DNA of 39,733 nucleotides from a virus, in the IMG/VR virus record IMGVR_UViG_3300026130_000434, positions 1 through 39,733 of that record; one strand, written 5' to 3'. The first letter of the stretch is position 1. Each line of letters begins with the position of its first letter. The notes under the pieces were generated by a model. The model saw only the letters and a list, made by a program, of their open reading frames with translations, was not told where the DNA came from and searched no databases. This document shows positions 5,561 through 38,581 of the stretch, piece by piece. A program made the position numbers and the translations under genes.

Positions 5561-8023
5561 ATGAATATAACTACACCTAAACCAGCGATTGAAATATTAC
5601 ACACTCTAATGGTTAGGTGGATTACCGTTATCGCTGTAATAGGATTATTAGCAGACTCGTTATTCATATACTACTTTGGACTTTCTACGGTCAGAAAAAC
5701 ATTAAATGAATTGTTCATTGTTGTTCTGCTAATAAATATTTTTCTATACACCTTTTCATGCTTAAATATTAAAAACTGTTTTTGGAACGTTGAACGTGCG
5801 TGGAATACTATTATTTTAGTCCTACTATGCATAGGGATTAACACATTGATTATAGACTCGGGTAATGCTTACGTTAATGCAATGAGTATTACATGGCCTG
5901 CATTGACGTTACTTGTATCAGTACTTACTGTATCACGAAAATATATAATCCCAGTTGTTATTGCGTATTCCGTAATGTTTTTGTTTGCAGGTACAATAAG
6001 CACAGTTTATGGACACAGTTTATTTCACCAAATTCTTGAGTTGTTTAATGCACATCAATACTTGGATGTTATCAACCATTACAACGTAAAAACTGATGGT
6101 GTTAAAATAACGCTGTACACGATGTTCGTAGGCACAACCGCATTTTGTGTTTCTTTGGTATTAAAGCATTTTATGCAACTAGTCATGGATGATTTAGAAA
6201 AACAAGCAAAACTTCACCGACACTATGCCCGCAGTACTGATTTGGCTGCCGACGAATTATCTAAGACTCTAGACACACTTAATACAGTCGCAGAGTCCGG
6301 TAAAATTGGATTGTTTACATATAATGTTAAGGATGATTTATTCGAAGACGTAAACACACCGTTCAGAGAGTTGTATGAATTACCTAGTGACAAGTATCAA
6401 CTTATAACATTAGACAATGTTCTTAACAAGTATCTAGATCCGTTTGTTCACACAAGCAATTTAAACTATAAAAAACTACACAACGAATTTTTACGATTTG
6501 CAGATTGGACCACTAAAAAAGAAAACACACATCGAATATACCACGAGTCAGGTGATAGGCGCAGTGTAAATGTTATTAGTACAGCAGAGTACAATGAGAA
6601 TCAAGAATTAGAAAAGATTCACGGCAGTGTATACGATGTTACTAAAGAACATGATATGAATGAAAAACTTCGTGAATTATCAGAAAACGACCCACTCACT
6701 GGTATATATTCTCGCCGAGGATTCTATAACGCAATAGAAAACTACGCGGAACAGGGTTGGGTAATACTTATAGACTTAGATTACTTCAAGGCAGTAAATG
6801 ATGCTTACGGACACGATGCCGGCGACATACTTATATCCCAAGTAGCAACGTTATTAGACAACAAAGTTCAACAGTGTAACGGTATAGTATCACGTATGGG
6901 AGGCGAAGAATATCTTATATACGTACCCTATGATATTGTTACCGGAATTGATAACGTAAAGAAATTTATATTTGACATTTTAATTAGCATTAAAAATGAA
7001 GTATTTGAATTGCCAGATGGCACTGAAATACGTAACCGTACAGCATCAGTTGGTGCCGCCTACAAAGACCCTAGTGAACCCATAGAAAGCATTATAACTC
7101 TTGCCGACCGAGCATTGTCACATGCGAAAGAAACAGGCAGAGACCGTTATGTTGTCGCAGACAAAGAATTTATGGATGTTATGCGAGCAAGAGGCGCAGA
7201 CATAACAGTAGAAGATATTCGTATAGGATTACAACTAGAACAATTTTACTATGTTGCGCAACCTATTGTTACTGCGCCGCATGGTCATATTGTAGGCTTT
7301 GAATTGTTATTGCGTTGGAATCGTAGAGGAATACAAATCAGTCCGGAATACTTTGCTGATAAAGTTGACAGATTACACCTTCAGCATCAAGATATTATTG
7401 GTGAAAAATTAATGAACAAACAACGTGAAATAATAGAAGAAATAAGCAAACATTTTCCAGATGCATATGTGAGTTATAACGTTTCTATAGATCGTTTTTC
7501 TGTGCCAGGCGGTGGGGCAGAAGTTTTAAAACGTAAGAAACAGATGCTATTTGGTATTTTAACACTTGATAAATTCGTACTAGAAATCAGCGAACACGCA
7601 GGAACATCAAGATATGACATAAACACTATTCGCAGAGAAATGAAAGTTGTTCAGAACTCAGGTATTCGAATCGCACTTGATGACTTCGGTAAGGATTCGT
7701 CTAACATAAATAGATTACAAGATTTGCCAGTAGATATTATAAAATTTGACAAATCCATTGTGGATAGTTTATCCACACAATACGAGACGGAAAATGGTTA
7801 TGTTCCAGGCTCAGGCACAAAGACTGCTTCTATACTTGCTATGTTGGCAAAACAATTAGGTAAGAAAGTTGTGGTTGAAGGCATCGAAGATGCAAAACAG
7901 TCATTATCATTCAAGACGTTTGGTGTAAATCATCAACAAGGTTTCTACTGGCACAGACCTGTTGAGAAAGATACTATTGAGAAACTTGCAAGACTACCCG
8001 AGAATTTAAAACCTGACTCCTGA
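5561..8023 (+). CDS. Membrane-bound GGDEF-EAL c-di-GMP enzyme
   Basis: An 820-residue protein with about six membrane segments (residues 18-215, MASE-like), a PAS-like region (about 240-365), a GGDEF domain and an EAL domain. The GGDEF active site reads GGEEY at 447-451, preceded by DPLTGIYSRRGF and DLDYFKAVNDAYGHD, so cyclase activity is plausible. The RxxD inhibitory site is absent (Q and G replace R and D). The EAL domain starts with ELL at Glu581, and keeps DDFG at 707-710, PVDIIKFDKSIV, the metal-site Asn and Glu residues and QGFYWHRP, so phosphodiesterase activity is also plausible. Such a full-length enzyme is rare in phages. It probably alters host c-di-GMP, hence motility and adhesion. 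It lies in the operon starting at 2651. Confidence 0.93.
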   Translation: MNITTPKPAIEILHTLMVRWITVIAVIGLLADSLFIYYFGLSTVRKTLNELFIVVLLINIFLYTFSCLNIKNCFWNVERAWNTIILVLLCIGINTLIIDSGNAYVNAMSITWPALTLLVSVLTVSRKYIIPVVIAYSVMFLFAGTISTVYGHSLFHQILELFNAHQYLDVINHYNVKTDGVKITLYTMFVGTTAFCVSLVLKHFMQLVMDDLEKQAKLHRHYARSTDLAADELSKTLDTLNTVAESGKIGLFTYNVKDDLFEDVNTPFRELYELPSDKYQLITLDNVLNKYLDPFVHTSNLNYKKLHNEFLRFADWTTKKENTHRIYHESGDRRSVNVISTAEYNENQELEKIHGSVYDVTKEHDMNEKLRELSENDPLTGIYSRRGFYNAIENYAEQGWVILIDLDYFKAVNDAYGHDAGDILISQVATLLDNKVQQCNGIVSRMGGEEYLIYVPYDIVTGIDNVKKFIFDILISIKNEVFELPDGTEIRNRTASVGAAYKDPSEPIESIITLADRALSHAKETGRDRYVVADKEFMDVMRARGADITVEDIRIGLQLEQFYYVAQPIVTAPHGHIVGFELLLRWNRRGIQISPEYFADKVDRLHLQHQDIIGEKLMNKQREIIEEISKHFPDAYVSYNVSIDRFSVPGGGAEVLKRKKQMLFGILTLDKFVLEISEHAGTSRYDINTIRREMKVVQNSGIRIALDDFGKDSSNINRLQDLPVDIIKFDKSIVDSLSTQYETENGYVPGSGTKTASILAMLAKQLGKKVVVEGIEDAKQSLSFKTFGVNHQQGFYWHRPVEKDTIEKLARLPENLKPDS

Positions 8024-11323: not shown

Positions 11324-11437
11324 ATGGCTTACAGCAAAGCAGTTTTAGACCATTACGAAAATCCACGCAACGTAGGTAAACTAGACCGCAATGATGACAG
11401 TGTTGGTACTGGCATGGTGGGTGCTCCTGCGTGTTAA
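11324..11437 (+). pseudogene. iscU: Orphaned 5' fragment of iscU (codons 1-37)
   Basis: This fragment encodes IscU residues 1-37, from MAYSKAVLDHYENPRN to MVGAPAC, then TAA. It ends exactly after Cys37, the first cluster-assembly cysteine, where IscU normally continues with Gly-Asp-Val-Met. It retains the native promoter and ribosome binding site. A second, diverged version of the same 37 codons lies 600 bp downstream, after an HNH endonuclease gene. Of 31 identical residues, about 18 use different codons in the two copies. The fragment would give only a truncated peptide. Confidence 0.9.
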
Positions 11438-11440
11438 TTT

Positions 11441-11448
11441 GATAAATA
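11441..11448 (+). promoter_or_regulatory. Late promoter box, leaderless spacing
   Basis: GATAAATA with five bases to ATG 11454, predicting transcription from the A of the endonuclease start codon. Confidence 0.6.
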
Positions 11449-11453
11449 ATAGT

Positions 11454-12050
11454 ATGAGTAAAAAATACGGCATACTAAAAAATTGTAAGCATTGCGGAAC
11501 TGAATTTGAAACCAAGCCAAGATATGTAGATTACTGTTCGACAGCCTGCAAAAATCCTATTAATAGACCAGGTAATACTGCTTGGAATAAAGGATTAACA
11601 ATGACAGAAGAACAAAAATCTAAAATGAACTTGGATGGGCTTAATAGGGGAAGAGGCTGGAACAAAGGATTAAAAAATCCCGAGCAGTCAAAAAAGTGGA
11701 CGGGTGAAAATAATCCTAATTGGGACGGTAAACTCAATAATCAACGCCCACATAAACCAAAAGATTCCGCTTTTGAAAAGTACAAAGCAGAATGCAAGAA
11801 AGTTACATATCGCTCTGTTAAAGTATTAAAGGAGCAAAACAAGGTACCTAATAACACAGGTAAACGTAAAACAGATATGCAACTGGATCATATAATACCC
11901 TACAAACAAGGGTATGAATTAGGGCTAGCACCGGAAATTATTGGAGGGATTTCAAACCTACAATATATTACAGGTGCAGAAAATAGAAAAAAGTGGGATA
12001 AATTTCAACCACAACACATAATAGACGAGGTAATTAAAAATGGCATATAG
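11454..12050 (+). CDS. HNH homing endonuclease
   Basis: A 198-residue protein. Residues about 10-35 hold a zinc-ribbon-like CKHC-x17-C-x3-C segment; a middle basic region has repeated WNKGL segments of the DNA-binding NUMOD type; residues about 143-180 form the HNH nuclease core, LDHIIPYKQGYEL followed by NLQYITGAENRKK. It cuts DNA at a target probably lying in iscU around codons 37-38, where it is inserted. An upstream ATG-containing extension in the same frame runs into iscU sequence and is not used: the ATG at 11454 is spaced exactly for a leaderless late transcript. Its last codons overlap the start of the replacement iscU exon, whose AGG-type ribosome binding site lies inside it. Confidence 0.9.
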   Translation: MSKKYGILKNCKHCGTEFETKPRYVDYCSTACKNPINRPGNTAWNKGLTMTEEQKSKMNLDGLNRGRGWNKGLKNPEQSKKWTGENNPNWDGKLNNQRPHKPKDSAFEKYKAECKKVTYRSVKVLKEQNKVPNNTGKRKTDMQLDHIIPYKQGYELGLAPEIIGGISNLQYITGAENRKKWDKFQPQHIIDEVIKNGI

Positions 12051-12472
12051 TGCGAAAGTTCTAGATCATTATGAAAATCCGCGTAACGTTGGTAAACTCG
12101 ATAAGGAGGATTTGCAAGTGGGAACCGGCATGGTCGGCGCTCCTGCTTGCGGTAGGCGATGTTATGCAGTTACAAATCAAAGTAAATGACGATGGTATCA
12201 TTGAGGATGCTAAGTTTTTAACGTATGGCTGTGGATCGGCGATTGCTTCAAGTTCACTTGTGACAGAGTGGATTAAAGGGATGAACCTTGACCAAGCAGG
12301 CGAACTAAAAAATAGTGATATTGCTCAAGAGTTGGCTTTGCCACCAGTGAAAATCCACTGTTCGGTATTGGCAGAAGATGCTATTAAAGCGGCTATTGCT
12401 GACTATAAAACCAAACACGAAGGCAAAGAAACACAATCAGGTGCCGTTGGTAGTTATGAACCTAACGCATAA
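12040..12472 (+). pseudogene. iscU: Rebuilt iscU with a frame break at the junction
   Basis: IscU is the scaffold on which iron-sulfur clusters are assembled. This copy starts with a recoded 5' exon (12040-12150, MAYSAKVLDHYENPRN to APAC) and continues into the native 3' part (12155-12472: GDVMQLQIKV, Cys in YGCGSAIASS, KIHCSVLAED with the His and Cys ligands). At the junction four extra bases (GGTA, 12151-12154) shift the frame, so straight translation stops at 12189 after 49 residues. Removing them restores exactly the universal Cys-Gly-Asp-Val-Met. The 3' part is long and undamaged, so loss of function must be recent, or a +1 shift at GGT-AGG rescues it with one added Gly. The protein also has a 15-residue C-terminal extension. 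Confidence 0.85.
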
Positions 12473-12706: not shown

Positions 12707-13420
12707 ATGATACTAAAGACCAGTCTATATCGTTATCATCCCGAGCATGATGAAAAACCGTATATGGAAGATATTGATGTTGAGATTCCAGACGGCAAAG
12801 ATATCATGGTCTTGGATGTATTACATTTAATAAAAGAACAAAATCCATCTGTGACATTTCGCAGAAGTTGTCGTGAAGGTGTCTGTGGTTCAGATGGCAT
12901 GAATATCAACGGCACTAACGGTTTAGCATGTATCACACCACTGTCAAAGGCAATGGGTAAAAGCGATAAACTAATACTTCGTCCATTGCCTGGACTGCCT
13001 GTCATTCGTGATTTGGTTGTAGATATGACTCAGTTTTATGCTCAGTATGAGCGCATTAAACCATGGCTACAAAACAATACACCTGCTCCTGCTATTGAAC
13101 GATTACAAAGTGAAGAGGAACGAGCCGAACTAGATGGATTATATGAATGTATCATGTGTGCTTGTTGCTCAACAGCGTGTCCGTCATTCTGGTGGAATCC
13201 TGACAAGTTTTTGGGTCCACAAGCAAGTTTGGCAGCGGCACGATTCTTGTTAGATAGCAGAGATACCGCAACAAAAGAACGACTACAAGAATTGGATGAC
13301 CCATTCTCAGTATTTCGTTGTCATGGCATAATGAATTGTGTGAATGTGTGTCCTAAAGGTCTTAATCCAACTAAAGCAATTGGTAAAATAAAAACCATGC
13401 TACTTCAACAGGCGACTTGA
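12707..13420 (+). CDS. sdhB: Succinate dehydrogenase iron-sulfur subunit
   Basis: A complete 237-residue SdhB, about the length of the E. coli protein. It carries electrons from the flavoprotein to quinone in complex II. All three cluster sites are present: 2Fe-2S (Cys55, Cys60, Asp63, Cys75 in SCREGVCGSDG and GLAC), 4Fe-4S (CIMCACCSTACP, Cys148-158) and 3Fe-4S (Cys205, Cys211, Cys215 in CHGIMNCVNVCPKGLNP). No sdhA, sdhC or sdhD is in the window. As an auxiliary metabolic gene in a phage it would have to join host subunits or serve another electron-transfer role. It is in the iscU operon, consistent with a need for clusters. Confidence 0.96.
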   Translation: MILKTSLYRYHPEHDEKPYMEDIDVEIPDGKDIMVLDVLHLIKEQNPSVTFRRSCREGVCGSDGMNINGTNGLACITPLSKAMGKSDKLILRPLPGLPVIRDLVVDMTQFYAQYERIKPWLQNNTPAPAIERLQSEEERAELDGLYECIMCACCSTACPSFWWNPDKFLGPQASLAAARFLLDSRDTATKERLQELDDPFSVFRCHGIMNCVNVCPKGLNPTKAIGKIKTMLLQQAT

Positions 13421-18250: not shown

Positions 18251-18514
18251 ATGATTAAACATGAACTAGACTTTAGTAACGGCGCCGTCGTAGTAGGACA
18301 CTACAAATATCCAAAATGTCCATCCTGCGACAGCGCCAAAGAACTCTTAAAAGAGAACGATATACAGTACACATTTGTACAAGCAGACAAAAAACTATTT
18401 GGCAAGGTTATGGGTGTAACCAAGCAAATTACTGTACCACAAATATTTATCAATGGTGAATTTATTGGTGGTTACGAAGAACTAGAAACTAAACTAAAAG
18501 GAGAAAAACAATGA
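18251..18514 (+). CDS. Glutaredoxin
   Basis: An 87-residue glutaredoxin. It has the active site CPSC at residues 23-26, the cis-proline segment TVPQIFI and the glutathione-binding GGYEEL near the end. It reduces disulfides with glutathione and could serve ribonucleotide reductase or the peroxiredoxin encoded directly after it, with which it overlaps by four bases (ATGA). In some bacteria the same two domains are fused in a hybrid Prx5-glutaredoxin. The promoter and hairpin before it suggest late expression. Confidence 0.92.
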
Positions 18515-19062
18515 TAGGCAAACAAGTACCACAAGTAACATTTAAATACCGTGTTCGTACAGACGGACATGATATCTGCTACGTAAACCCAGACAATGGT
18601 GGTGAAAACCCTTTTGAATGGAAAGACGTAACAACTGATGATATCTTTGCAGGCAAGAAAGTAATCGTATTCTCACTACCAGGAGCATACACTCCAACTT
18701 GCTCTGCTTCGCACTTACCTAGATACGAAGAATTGTATTCTGAATTTAAAGAACTGGGAGTAGATGAAATCTACGTTCTATCAGTAAACGATACATTCGT
18801 TATGCGTAAGTGGATGATTGATCAAAAAGCAACCAACGTAAAATTTATTCCCGATGGTTCTGGAATATTCACTGAAGGAATGGGAATGCTGGTAGATAAA
18901 GATAATCTAGGTTTTGGTAAACGATCTTGGAGATATTCTATGTTAGTTGATGATAGAGTAGTTGAGAAGATGTTCATTGAAGATGGTAAAATGGATAATT
19001 GTCCGACAGATCCATATGAGGTATCTGACGCAGACACAATGTTATCATATTTAAAATCTTAA
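18511..19062 (+). CDS. Peroxiredoxin, Prx5 type, with a replaced 3' end
   Basis: A 183-residue peroxiredoxin that reduces peroxides. The peroxidatic Cys64 lies in PGAYTPTCS, and [10 protein letters not shown] (about 135-144) and the C-terminal DPYEVSDAD are family landmarks. It probably takes electrons from the glutaredoxin before it. The part from about residue 135 on has a diverged second version at 20055-20198, beyond an inverted homing endonuclease gene. The present end therefore seems to have been brought in with the element. The gene itself is intact and in frame. Confidence 0.93.
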
Positions 19063-19070
19063 TGTTTGGC

Positions 19071-19099
19071 AATAGAGAGGCTATCTAAGCCTCTCTATT
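19071..19099. terminator. Bidirectional terminator between convergent genes
   Basis: AATAGAGAGGC and GCCTCTCTATT form a perfect 11 bp stem with a seven-base loop. The loop and stem edge contain the stop codon of the minus-strand endonuclease. A TTTG run follows on the plus strand only weakly. Confidence 0.75.
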
Positions 19100-19983
19100 T
19101 GTTCATTTATCCAATCATCTGATTTATTCGGCCAACCCTTTCCTAATTTTACTTTTTTTCTTTTTGCCAAAGCACGTAACTCCACGACATTATCTCTATT
19201 TCGTAATTTAGTAACAGAGTTAGTCATTGCTTCAACTGCGGTCGTCCAAACATTTTCTTGCCAATCTGTGCGACTCTTTGTTTCCAATTCTTTTTGCTTT
19301 GCCTCTGAACCTATAGTCTCCTTCCACAATGGGTCATTTTTTGTGTCGGACACTTTTTGGTTTCTAACCAATCCAACATTTTTCATCCAGTCTGAATCGG
19401 AGTAGCATTCTTTTTGCTTTCTAATTCTCTCTATTCCTTTAGATGCTTTCCACTCAGAAGAATTTACTGTTTCCTTAATTTTTCTCAATGCCTCCTTTCC
19501 AGTAGTTTCTTTCCACAATGGGTCGTTTTTTGTGTCAGATATTTTTTGATTTATATGTAATTGTTTTACTTTCCATTGGTTTGAAGATTTTGTTTCCATT
19601 AGTCGTTGGTATTGTAAGTCTGAACATCCGCCGTCCAATCCATTTTCAATTTTGAGATTTGCCCATATAATCGAGTTAACAATATCGTTTTCTATACTGA
19701 ATCTTATTGCTACTTTTTGTAATGTTATTGGGCAACAGTAAGGTTCAGAGACCCAGAGTAATTCTGGGTTACCATGGTGCTTGATAAAATCTTTCCATAC
19801 TTTGCCAGACCCGTGATAGTTTTCATAATCATCTTGCGTAGTTTTATGGAAATAAAACACACTTGAACCATCATTTCTGATAATTCTTCTTATCATAAGT
19901 CGCGTTGGTTTGAATAATGAGTTATTATATGTATAATTTACTTGACTTTCCACAAGTGTGGATATACTATTATAAATAGACAT
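19081..19983 (-). CDS. Homing-endonuclease-like protein with W-repeats
   Basis: A 300-residue protein on the opposite strand to its surroundings. Residues 34-70 (VFYFHKTTQDD, YHGSGKVWKDFIKHHG) match the YxGSG-K segment shared by phage GIY-YIG-like or Hef-type homing nucleases, followed by a LKIENGLDGG segment. Residues 120-270 hold about five repeats with a Trp and a basic helix (KNDPLWKETTGKEA, KNDPLWKETIGSEA and weaker ones), probably the DNA-reading part. It sits in the 3' part of the peroxiredoxin gene. The start MSIYNS is shared with the GIY-YIG protein at 37713-38411 (MSIYTN), as is the leader. The nuclease class is uncertain. Confidence 0.7.
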   Translation of the reverse strand: MSIYNSISTLVESQVNYTYNNSLFKPTRLMIRRIIRNDGSSVFYFHKTTQDDYENYHGSGKVWKDFIKHHGNPELLWVSEPYCCPITLQKVAIRFSIENDIVNSIIWANLKIENGLDGGCSDLQYQRLMETKSSNQWKVKQLHINQKISDTKNDPLWKETTGKEALRKIKETVNSSEWKASKGIERIRKQKECYSDSDWMKNVGLVRNQKVSDTKNDPLWKETIGSEAKQKELETKSRTDWQENVWTTAVEAMTNSVTKLRNRDNVVELRALAKRKKVKLGKGWPNKSDDWINEQIERLR

Positions 19984-20052
19984 GCTGATAGTTCCTTATT
20001 AACTGTTAGAGTAGTCGGATATTGGCGTATCGCGGGCTACACTTTTATTTAT
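19984..20052 (-). promoter_or_regulatory. Late promoter and conserved hairpin leader, copy A
   Basis: Minus strand: box ATAAATA, then a leader of about 65 bases ending in AAGGAACTATCAGC before ATG 19983. It is nearly identical to the leader at 38412-38478. GTAG-C and G-CTAC plus GATA and TATC can form a hairpin with loop CGCCAA. Confidence 0.7.
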
Positions 20053-20054
20053 CT

Positions 20055-20198
20055 TTCGGCAAACGTTCATGGCGTTACGCTATGGTGGTAGAAGACGGTG
20101 TAGTAACACACATGTTTGAAGAGCCAGGCAAGTCTGACAATCATCCAGAAGACCCATACGGTGTATCAGCACCAGAAAACGTACTAGCAAATATTTAA
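20055..20198 (+). pseudogene. Orphaned 3' end of the peroxiredoxin gene
   Basis: A 47-codon in-frame remnant from [15 protein letters not shown] to the stop at 20198. It corresponds to residues 135 onwards of the intact peroxiredoxin at 18511 but differs in many codons and residues (for example EEPGKSDNHPEDPYGVS against [16 protein letters not shown]). It has no start codon or promoter. It is separated from its original 5' part by the endonuclease gene, and the DoxX gene follows after a normal short gap, so this is the native operon end. Confidence 0.9.
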
Positions 20199-36354: not shown

Positions 36355-36377
36355 GTGTAGATGATTACCATCTACAC
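36355..36377. terminator. Hairpin terminator at the endonuclease stop
   Basis: GTGTAGATG and CATCTACAC (9 bp, loop ATTAC) with TTTT on the plus side and TGTTTT on the minus side. The stop codon of the minus-strand gene lies within the loop. Confidence 0.7.
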
Positions 36378-37042
36378 TTTTCTCCATTCAGACCATGCCA
36401 CTTAGATATGTTTGCCTTTTGTCCTTCTTTGCCACATTTAGGACACACCGCAGATGCCCCAAATCCCGGATTACTATTCTTCGCTATATCTGACATTTTT
36501 TGTTTTGTTTCATCTGAATGAAATCGTGTGCTAGGGTCCCTCTTCTTCGCAGCATCAGATATGTTTCGTTTATGTTCTTCGGTGAATTTGATACCTTTGT
36601 TTCTTGAATGCCCTTTATTTGCTTCGGATATTCTTTGTTTTGTTTCTTCGGTATGTTTCTTTCCATAGAATGGATTGTCCGAACCTTTTCTTTTGGCTCC
36701 GTACATTCCATTTTTCTTTCCTTTCCTATCTTCGCTGTTAATCAGTCGATACTCGTCCTTATACTTTCCGTATGATCTAGAGTTATACAGTTTTCTTCCG
36801 GACATAAGAACATGAGCCGCAATCATCTTTCTACGATGCTCCCCTTCCGTGAACTTAGGCAATAATAAATGACAAATGTAATGCTCTCTAGCAGTTAACG
36901 ACACCAAGTTATCATCGGTGTCCTCTCCTCCTAGTGATCTTGGTATGATATGATGCCTCTCTGTGTAATCTTCAATAATACGATGCTTGGCGTTTTCTAT
37001 GATTCTAAAATAACAATCATAATACTTATTTAATATGAACAT
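36365..37042 (-). CDS. HNH homing endonuclease with NUMOD3 repeats
   Basis: A 225-residue protein on the minus strand. Residues about 22-70 are the HNH core (YTERHHIIPRSLGG, DNLVSLTAREHYICH). Residues about 112-200 hold several NUMOD3-type DNA-binding segments (NPFYGKKHTEETKQRISEAN, KGIKFTEEHKRNISDA, STRFHSDETKQKMSDIA), and the end has a CPKCGKEG zinc pair. The start at 37042 is set by the late box CATAAATA five bases before it (37055 down to 37048), predicting leaderless mRNA; an in-frame extension to 37114 would run over that box. It lies in the promoter region of the HAD gene. Confidence 0.93.
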   Translation of the reverse strand: MFILNKYYDCYFRIIENAKHRIIEDYTERHHIIPRSLGGEDTDDNLVSLTAREHYICHLLLPKFTEGEHRRKMIAAHVLMSGRKLYNSRSYGKYKDEYRLINSEDRKGKKNGMYGAKRKGSDNPFYGKKHTEETKQRISEANKGHSRNKGIKFTEEHKRNISDAAKKRDPSTRFHSDETKQKMSDIAKNSNPGFGASAVCPKCGKEGQKANISKWHGLNGEKCRW

Positions 37043-37047
37043 AAATG

Positions 37048-37055
37048 TATTTATG
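37048..37055 (-). promoter_or_regulatory. Late promoter box, leaderless spacing
   Basis: CATAAATA read on the minus strand, five bases before ATG 37042. Confidence 0.6.
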
Positions 37056-37103
37056 TTAGAACTACTATTAGAGTGGGATACAGCAAAAAATTCAAAAAAA
37101 CTG

Positions 37104-37162: not shown

Positions 37163-37738
37163 ATGAATAAAATAATTTTGAGTGACGTGGACGGTGTTCT
37201 CCTTGATTGGGAACTTGCTTTTCACAAGTGGATGGAAGACAAAGGTTACACTGCTGCCGACAAATCACTTTACAAAATGAACGAAGCATACGACATTGAG
37301 AAAGCAGAAAGCAAAAGACTTATTCGTGAGTTTAACGAGAGTGTGCGAATGCTTGACTTGCCTGCTTTTCGTGATGCTCGCAGCGGTGTTGCTCGGCTCG
37401 TTGAAGCGGGTTATCAGTTTGTCGTTATCACTAGTATGAGTCTCGACCCAATGGCGAAGAAAGCCCGTGAGATTAATCTTGAGGCGGTGTTTGGTGAGAA
37501 TGTGTTCGTAGAAGTTATCTGTTTAGACACAGGCGCTGACAAAGACGAAGCATTGATCCCATGGAAAGATAGTAACATCATCTTTATAGAAGATAAAGCA
37601 GAAAATGCTGTTACTGGTGCTGATATGGGTCTGCGAAGTATTCTGATTGAACACAAGCACAATGCTGAATGTGATGACCCGCGTATTGCTCGTTGTGCTG
37701 ATTGGAAAGAAATTACTGACTTGATTCTCGCTGAATAA
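37163..37738 (+). CDS. HAD-superfamily 5'-nucleotidase-like protein
   Basis: A 191-residue HAD hydrolase, started at ATG 37163 after AAAGGTG. Motif I is [11 protein letters not shown] (Asp8, Asp10), motif II is VITSMS, and motifs III-IV are the Lys region and [16 protein letters not shown]. Size and motifs fit 5'(3')-deoxyribonucleotidases, which dephosphorylate nucleotides and could aid nucleotide recycling. Its last ten codons are identical in sequence to an orphaned remnant at 38479-38550, and its promoter has an orphaned copy at 36298, so the whole gene is bracketed by homing elements. Confidence 0.85.
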
Positions 37739-37741
37739 TAA
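37712..37741. repeat. 30 bp direct repeat, left copy (right copy 38524-38553)
   Basis: Identical 30 bp at both places, covering the last nine codons and stop of the HAD gene (ITDLILAE). The copies flank the GIY-YIG gene, whose own C-terminus is encoded, on the other strand, by the left copy. Confidence 0.95.
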
Positions 37742-38411
37742 TCCAATTACCTTTTTGCACACAACGATATCTAAACTGGGATACCGTCATGTTATTATAT
37801 ATGGCGGCTTCATTTACAGAATCAAACATTCTTCCGTCTGGTGATTTCACGTTCAATCTATTAGCAGGAATTTTGCCTTTTAGTGAGTTACTAATGTTCT
37901 CTCGTCCTTCTTTGCTGTGAGGTTTTCTTGTTTTTATTGTTCTTCCTGTGTAGTATTCTGGTGGATTCTCTCCTTCTGGAACATAAATGGTATTATCTCC
38001 ATCTGTGTACCATTTTAGATTATTATCTGTTACAGCACTTCTTCCATACATGCCATTTTTTTCTCCTGATCGGTCTAACTCTTTCATCGCTTTGATATAG
38101 TTAGGACTATGCGAGGTGTCCCCTCCCGTTCCTCCTTCTGTTATATTCAGCAAAATACCACCATCATCTATATTTTTTCTACCGTGAAGTTTTATGAGTC
38201 TTCTTTCAATTGCATATGCTCCAAGTTCTGTTAGCCATGATTCTAGTATGATTATGCGATTATGATCTGGTGGTAGATTAACTCTACCGTGTTTAACCCA
38301 TGCTCGATCATCTTTACCTTTTCCTATGTAATATGGAGTTCCGTCTTTTCTTAGATACGCATAAACATAATATTGACATCCATGCGTGGAGGTGTTAGTA
38401 TAAATACTCAT
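37713..38411 (-). CDS. GIY-YIG homing endonuclease
   Basis: A 232-residue protein on the minus strand, starting at ATG 38411 after AGAGGAACT; a longer frame upstream runs through the promoter leader. Residues about 13-35 carry the GIY-YIG core in the form YYVYAYL then [13 protein letters not shown], followed by the conserved Arg-Glu helix (ERRLIKLHG). Then come a GMYGRS segment, a NUMOD3-like [17 protein letters not shown] and a C-terminal NUMOD1-like [18 protein letters not shown]. Its last eight codons overlap the end of the HAD gene in antisense. The leader matches that of the 19081-19983 endonuclease. Confidence 0.94.
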
Positions 38412-38523
38412 GCTGATAGTTCCTCTTAAACTGTTAGAGTAGTCAGATATTGGTGTATCGTGGACTACACTTTTATTTATGCGTGGTGTACATAATGACT
38501 GTGAAGACAAGTTTGAAAATGCC
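37742..38523. mobile_element. Homing element at the 3' end of the HAD gene
   Basis: The segment between the two 30 bp repeats holds the GIY-YIG gene, its leader and late box, and the orphaned start of the native 3' end. The intact HAD gene ends at the left repeat; the native 3' end and terminator remain at the right. Confidence 0.75.
38412..38480 (-). promoter_or_regulatory. Late promoter and conserved hairpin leader, copy B
   Basis: Minus strand: box ATAAATA then a leader of about 65 bases matching copy A at 19984-20052 with few changes. GTAGTC pairs with GACTAC and GATA with TATC (loop CACCAA). One changed pair (A-T here, G-C in copy A) is compensatory. Confidence 0.7.
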
Positions 38524-38550
38524 ATTACTGACTTGATTCTCGCTGAATAA
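38479..38550 (+). pseudogene. Orphaned 3' end of the HAD gene
   Basis: A 23-codon in-frame remnant ending [13 protein letters not shown]. It aligns with the C-terminus of the intact gene (HNAECDD ... [11 protein letters not shown] against HNDCED ... [12 protein letters not shown]). It is followed by the native terminator at 38582, so it marks the original gene end. Confidence 0.85.
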
Positions 38551-38581
38551 TAAAAAATCTCTTTGTTAACTTTATCACATA

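Follow-up and report, generated by a model that had tools for sequence, protein, structure and literature searches.

The DNA that we analyzed, which we will call the window, is a 39,733-nucleotide stretch of viral sequence (IMG/VR record IMGVR_UViG_3300026130_000434). It contains two homing endonuclease genes (HEGs), HEG 1 and HEG 2, that are preceded by similar leaders. An earlier note had placed these leaders at 19984-20052 and 38412-38480, and a DNA search of the window recovered both at those positions (88% identity, E = 1.3e-24); each is the sole match of the other within the window. The note had also described the two nucleases as quite different, which agrees with a BLASTP comparison of the HEG 1 and HEG 2 proteins (E = 0.6, the level of chance). 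The features of the two loci are as follows.

18511-19062 (+): peroxiredoxin gene, complete; its last ~50 codons are duplicated past the element
19081-19983 (-): HEG 1, 300 aa, GIY-YIG-like by eye; weak PHROG match (E = 0.013), no match in a Pfam search
19971-19978 (+): putative left late-promoter box, TATAAATA, in HEG 1 codons 2-4 and facing the leader; identified from conservation in the family
19984-20052 (-): 5' leader of HEG 1, with Shine-Dalgarno AAGGAA and ATG at 19983
19984-20050 (+): predicted structured antisense RNA, copy 1 (covariance-model score 99.1 bits, covariation, fold): G19984; P1, 19985-20009; linker A20010; P2, 20011-20040; then a weak T-tract
20046-20052 (-): right late-promoter box ATAAATA, the predicted driver of HEG 1; right boundary of the element
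20054-20197 (+): severed second peroxiredoxin C-terminus, in frame (60% identity over 47 aa)
37712-37741 (+): 3' end of a HAD/NT5C-like gene, an exact 30-bp repeat of 38523-38552
37713-38411 (-): HEG 2, 232 aa, GIY-YIG type; phrog_314 homing endonuclease (E = 2e-14)
38399-38406 (+): putative left late-promoter box, TATAAATA, inside the HEG 2 codons
38412-38480 (-): 5' leader of HEG 2, the second copy, from the DNA search of the window
38412-38478 (+): predicted structured antisense RNA, copy 2 (93.2 bits, fold): P1, 38413-38437; P2, 38439-38468
38474-38480 (-): putative right late-promoter box ATAAATA of HEG 2
38523-38552 (+): severed duplicate 3' end of the HAD/NT5C-like gene, on the far side of the element

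HEG 1 lies antisense, directly behind the complete peroxiredoxin gene, and HEG 2 lies likewise behind the HAD/NT5C-like gene. (The duplicate peroxiredoxin segments are at 18909-19062 and 20054-20197.) Because each locus has an intact host gene to one side and, beyond the leader, a severed duplicate of that gene's 3' end, the leader is the right end of the inserted element. Up to six more elements of the family described below have a similar duplication of the host gene's 3' end (L051, L070, L075, L130, L192, and L208; the weakest has E = 0.007). The earlier note had missed this placement of the HEGs, antisense and at the 3' end of a host gene that is partly duplicated, as well as the antisense strand of the RNA and the second, facing late box. 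Mobile ORFs in fungal mitochondria have the same C-terminal duplication arrangement: the incoming endonuclease gene supplies a new 3' end for its host gene, and the native C-terminus is left severed (PMC3630166). The fungal elements differ in being mitochondrial and mainly LAGLIDADG, and no such RNA is described for them in that account.

The window has other HEGs and some unusual genes. A third HEG (36365-37091, - strand; HNH, phrog_655) lies antisense upstream of the HAD-like gene; it has an ATAAATA box and lacks the structured leader. Also, iscU (11325-12472, + strand) is split by a sense-oriented HNH-like HEG at about 11454-12050. The native 5' end of iscU (MAYSKAVLDHYENPRNVG...GAPAC) terminates in a stop, and behind the HEG a second, recoded iscU start (MAYSAKVLDHYENPRNVG...GAPACG) joins the remaining iscU, and the reading frame changes where the two meet. 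This N-terminal duplication is the mirror image of the two C-terminal duplications in the window, and no intron RNA was found at the iscU HEG. Beside iscU is an iron-sulfur subunit that resembles succinate dehydrogenase SdhB (12707-13420, + strand; Fer2_3 + 4Fe-4S), and together these are an unusual set of auxiliary metabolic genes. The phage genome also encodes an 820-aa GGDEF-EAL protein (5561-8023, + strand), for cyclic-di-GMP turnover.

As the earlier note had proposed, a late-type promoter box precedes both HEGs: ATAAATA, on the minus strand, terminates each leader. The window encodes a T4-type clamp loader (phrog_168) and contains TATAAATA boxes, one of them ~20 bp upstream of the endolysin gene, which makes T4-type late promoters a reasonable interpretation of the boxes. 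Judging from these sequences, the boxes in the window probably work as promoters. Given the spacing of T4 late promoters, the HEG 1 mRNA would start near 20040.

The note had proposed that the leader folds into a hairpin. A fold is indeed predicted, but the favored one is that of the plus strand, which is antisense to the HEG mRNA. In the window, the sense strands fold no better than shuffled sequences (z = 0.0 and -0.8), while the antisense strands fold better than shuffles (z = -1.75 and -2.6). Read opposite to the HEG, the family consensus is TAAATA-n4/5-GCUG-P1-UUAGAG-P2-CAC-nnn-TATTTA. P1 is a hairpin of 9 pairs whose loop holds an anti-Shine-Dalgarno sequence (CUCC or UUCCUU). P2 has 11 pairs, for 20 pairs in all, and two unpaired Gs on its 3' side.

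To find more copies, we scanned IMG/VR with sequence patterns, which matched at least 119 stretches for the P1 stem alone and at least 120 stretches for P2 features. Running a covariance model (R1) on the scanned loci gave 108, 115, and 15 matches, or at least 198 distinct elements once duplicates were removed. Among the matches listed, an HEG frame of at least 60 aa starts directly at the leader in 184 of 198 elements, and 0, 1, or 2 nt separate the HEG's ATG from the first base of the structure in 174 of 182. The nucleases behind the leader include GIY-YIG, HNH (PF01844), HNH_3 (PF13392), and NUMOD3 proteins (from Pfam and PHROG phrog_314). These first sets were biased by the search patterns (for instance, P1 is invariant by construction in our alignment A1), so we sampled again using the HEG protein alone. 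In this protein-only sample, the structure lies immediately upstream of 67 of 80 GIY-YIG HEGs and 40 of 80 HNH HEGs, always on the antisense strand.

Copies are also found in cultured phages: there are five in four isolates. Agrobacterium phage OLIVR5 has a copy between nrdA and grxC, Rhizobium phage LG08 has two copies, the copy in Caulobacter phage Cr30 adjoins the gene for a single-stranded DNA-binding protein, and Pseudoalteromonas phage XG4 carries one. BLASTN performed poorly in finding copies in isolates, and we did not count its weak matches (to Staphylococcus, Schitoviridae, Gordonia, and Vibrio) as copies. No match was found in the isolates T4, S-PM2, Aeh1, HTVC008M, phiM12, and cyanophages that we tried, which is a weak negative for diverged copies. 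Larger contigs carry one to five copies. Of three contigs of metagenome-assembled genomes from genome collections, just one had a true covariance-model match, so in the collections that we searched, the element occurs almost exclusively in phages.

By sequence, the elements fit the class of free-standing phage HEGs: an HEG-family protein is beside or within host genes, with no intron. Rfam scans found no intron RNA at the elements, and the element itself matches no Rfam 15 family at the gathering score. We rejected a group I or group II intron or an intein, as there is no Rfam match, the upstream genes are complete, and there is no conserved 5' part.

The conserved structure shows massive covariation across the family, as expected if the leader is an RNA control element, which was one of the two readings in the earlier note. 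The covariance-model search that the note had suggested as a check found further copies before HNH and several GIY-YIG HEGs, with compensatory changes. The note's own example, a change from G-C to A-U between the two copies in the window, corresponds to columns 49/67 of A1 and recurs in the family: of 63 sequences, 51 have G-C, 7 have A-U, and 5 have G-U. In the protein-gathered set, 99.0% of pair cells are formed, both partners vary in 18 of the 20 pairs, and double-change cells number 284, versus 70 in shuffles. (This alignment was fitted to the covariance model, so its counts lean towards the structure.) Sliding the pairing partner destroys the signal. The first set was aligned with MAFFT, without structure, and among the matches listed it gave 99.4% formed pairs and 218 double-change cells versus 55.

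The wobble pairs identify the strand. Read on the antisense strand, the wobbles are 132 G.U versus 4 A.C in the protein-gathered set, and 61 versus 1 in the first set (among the matches listed). One pair at the base of P1 is G.U in 63/63 sequences, and its counterpart in the HEG mRNA would be an A.C mismatch. In 97% of copies, the antisense strand is the more stable one (mean -18.5 versus -12.0 kcal/mol). The G.U bias and the better folding of the antisense strand thus assign the conserved RNA to that strand. We are nearly certain that this is a real, structured, HEG-associated element of the antisense strand.

Some features of the RNA are conserved beyond its pairing. The U-A and G.U pairs at the base of P1 are invariant, and P2 has conserved unpaired Gs. 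The T-tract that follows P2 is weak (its mean T score is 1.13, and its longest run is usually 3-4), which makes a discrete 3' end of the RNA uncertain. We also rejected an intrinsic terminator as the main role, as the T-tract is weak and is not conserved apart from the promoter box.

The left box, TAAATA, lies in HEG codons 2-4. Among the matches listed, 186 of 192 elements have this box, versus 0.9% of control windows from the same genes, and the right box is equally conserved. Both HEG proteins in the window begin with MSIY, as the earlier note had pointed out, but this is not a protein signature: the codons spell the plus-strand box TATAAATA. Across the family, the box (TATTTA, as the HEG reads it) occurs in all three HEG frames (118, 43, and 15 cases among the matches listed), and the resulting protein starts are, by frame, MSIY/MNIY/MTIY, MYL, or MIF/MLF. 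This rules out a shared protein motif and implies selection on the DNA. Nor is the left box maintained to serve the downstream gene: among the matches listed, there are 39 elements in which that gene lies on the other strand, and all 39 retain the box.

The boxes vary in some lineages. The left TAAATA box is unrecognizable in OLIVR5, LG08, and XG4, which keep the RNA; in OLIVR5, this counts against an independent promoter. The right box of OLIVR5 reads TTAAAATA, which is like the sequences before its tail and head (late) genes, and the RNA core is kept. In five other elements (L028, L041, L050, L107, and L111), the right late box is replaced by TTGACA and the T-run after P2 is longer. This TTGACA resembles the -35 sequence of an early promoter for the downstream gene, so that the cassette looks like the PeSL cassettes of T4-type phages. 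These cassettes, which are attributed to Arbiol et al. 2010, are said to be small mobile modules, consisting of a promoter and a stem-loop, that are shuffled between genes; the promoter is reportedly an early sigma-70 promoter, and the stem-loop an efficient terminator. The family as a whole appears distinct from PeSL, as its sequences have two late-type boxes and a weak T-tract.

The other reading in the earlier note was a mobile expression cassette that had been coupled to different nucleases. We found that the identity of the leaders hardly depends on the kinship of their HEGs: among the matches listed, mean leader identity is 0.739 for pairs of related HEGs and 0.727 for unrelated pairs. 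There are 67 pairs of leaders that are at least 93% identical, and 33 of these carry proteins without a BLASTP match to each other (among the matches listed). In two of the 33 pairs the leaders are 100% identical, and one of these joins an HNH gene to a GIY-YIG gene. (A few of the leader pairs are not HEG-HEG pairs, because the protein from L066 is an unrelated ORF.) The sequences thus indicate that the cassette has been exchanged or homogenized between nucleases many times, and both readings in the note are supported. Overall, sequence comparison establishes the RNA class, its strand, its two boxes, its association with several HEG families, and its shuffling between nucleases.

A few elements depart from the usual arrangement. 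In L022, L026, L032, L111, and L133, the HEG is degraded or gone and the RNA structure is still there, so the RNA may outlive the HEG. In L066 (9060-9640, - strand) and also in L120, the leader is followed by an unrelated ORF of 159 aa and then by the HEG. There, the cassette may drive a late gene that is not an HEG.

We propose that free-standing phage HEGs carry the leader as a portable late-expression cassette, with two convergent T4-type late promoters. The right promoter would transcribe the HEG, and the left promoter, in the first HEG codons, would transcribe in the opposite direction to make an RNA of ~65 nt with two hairpins. If the spacing is that of T4 late promoters, transcription from the left would begin at the G of GCUG and transcription from the right close to the outer end of P2, and the two transcripts would be complementary from the start of the HEG mRNA to the AUG. 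The short RNA would be fully complementary to the 5' UTR of the HEG mRNA, and its P1 loop would display the anti-Shine-Dalgarno sequence. Most likely, it is a countertranscript that pairs at the HEG's ribosome-binding site and limits translation of the endonuclease late in infection. We infer the activity of the left box, the end of the RNA, and repression of the HEG. We would give the mechanism in full, in which a portable cassette with two promoters makes a structured antisense RNA that limits HEG translation, an even chance of being correct.

The anatomy of the cassette is like that of a countertranscript: there is a box in the first codons, a short stable RNA, and a loop against the Shine-Dalgarno sequence. 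By analogy, the closest systems in working principle are IS10 RNA-OUT and P22 sar. RNA-OUT is a 69-nt antisense RNA that blocks the ribosome-binding site of the transposase (PMC5006887). IS10 has an opposing promoter near the start of the mobile gene and a structured RNA over the translation initiation region (~65-69 nt in the two systems), as we propose here, and our RNA shares with RNA-OUT-type control both its location opposite that region and its stable secondary structure. However, the IS10 transposon has a single gene and a single RNA, while here one RNA class accompanies several unrelated nuclease families; and only the present RNA has phage late-promoter boxes and invariant bases beyond complementarity. 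Sar is a phage antisense RNA of 68/69 nt that pairs with the ant mRNA and inhibits its synthesis (PMC12197685). It belongs to the immunity region of a temperate phage, with no homing gene. Another antisense RNA that runs against a phage HEG, as we propose here, is CfrI of the T4-like cyanophage S-PM2, which opposes F-CphI/psbA (PMC2984593). But CfrI is ~225 nt and spans psbA and the HEG, and models R1 and R2 had no match in S-PM2 (NC_006820), while positive controls did match; we rejected homology to CfrI.

Three features fit a countertranscript poorly: the weakness of the T-tract, the presence of invariant bases that pairing does not call for, and the few copies without an HEG that keep the RNA. 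In particular, the invariant U-A and G.U pairs at the base of P1 and the unpaired Gs of P2 are more than antisense control by complementarity requires, which suggests a candidate protein partner. The poor fits could mean that the RNA has a protein partner, or that it serves a second function in the operon around it. It is also conceivable that the RNA acts in trans, given that P1 and its anti-Shine-Dalgarno loop are almost identical before unrelated nucleases: with a dedicated protein, it would silence other HEGs in the same phage or in a co-infecting phage. We consider this extension unlikely.

Alternatively, the plus-strand structure might act within longer transcripts of the host operon or of downstream genes, where the box and hairpins would re-start, process, or stabilize late transcripts. 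This would be consistent with the HEG being antisense to both neighbors in 91 of 134 elements (among the matches listed), and T4 HEGs do carry promoters for downstream genes within their coding regions (PMC2988022). But the 39 elements that retain the left box opposite a downstream gene on the other strand (39 of 39 among the matches listed) contradict the idea that it is kept just for that gene, and a role in a 5' UTR leaves the exact abutment on the HEG start codon unexplained. We view this alternative as unlikely.

The leader might instead work as DNA, as a single-stranded hairpin or a protein-binding site at the right end of the element, for replication, recombination, or insertion. The leader is indeed the right boundary of the element, beside severed ends of host genes; leaders move between HEGs; and G.T pairs are tolerated in DNA too. 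However, late-promoter boxes mark both ends, and where the right box is replaced, in OLIVR5, the replacement (TTAAAATA) is late-gene-like. Together, these point to transcription, and we know of no step in HEG mobility that needs a hairpin end. A role as DNA is quite doubtful.

In T4, I-TevI, segB, and mobE have a late promoter and a hairpin leader that hides the ribosome-binding site (PMC2988022). Our elements are similar in being late-promoted HEGs with structured leaders in T4-type phages, so the leader of a long HEG transcript might hide the ribosome-binding site in the same way. But in T4 it is the sense strand that folds, and here the conserved structure is on the antisense strand. The wobbles favor that strand (132 versus 4 and 61 versus 1), and we rejected a sense-strand hairpin on this basis. 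Also, the G.U pair at the base of P1 becomes A.C in the sense RNA, sense folds are no better than shuffles, and we found no structure on the HEG-sense strand that pairs with the Shine-Dalgarno sequence, whose median unpaired probability is 0.56. A T4-type hairpin is very improbable.

Finally, structured RNAs beside the nuclease genes of mobile elements, with a 3' side that would run toward the insertion flank, bring to mind a guide or scaffold for the endonuclease, as in OMEGA/HEARO systems, but those have a RuvC-type IscB/TnpB nuclease and a same-strand RNA, whereas this RNA is encoded opposite GIY-YIG or HNH/NUMOD nucleases that have their own DNA-binding motifs (NUMOD3), and its best-conserved loop fits the Shine-Dalgarno sequence and no target, so we find a working partner instead of a regulator barely credible.

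Antisense control of mobile genes is already known. A structured RNA class that is common to unrelated phage HEGs was not found in Rfam 15 or in the open-access papers that we searched. Few selfish genes in T4-like phages are as common as free-standing homing endonucleases, and to our knowledge, their late, low expression has been explained for just a handful of cases in T4. If our proposal is correct, then one structured RNA class that moves between nucleases would be a general control module for HEGs, or a portable off-switch, and it would be one of the first antisense RNAs to be widespread in lytic phages. The module has hundreds of natural variants and a testable architecture, with two facing late promoters and one antisense RNA, and its invariant bases lead us to expect a binding partner, which can be sought. 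If the RNA also silences HEGs in trans, then it would amount to a shared dosage control or incompatibility system for homing genes.
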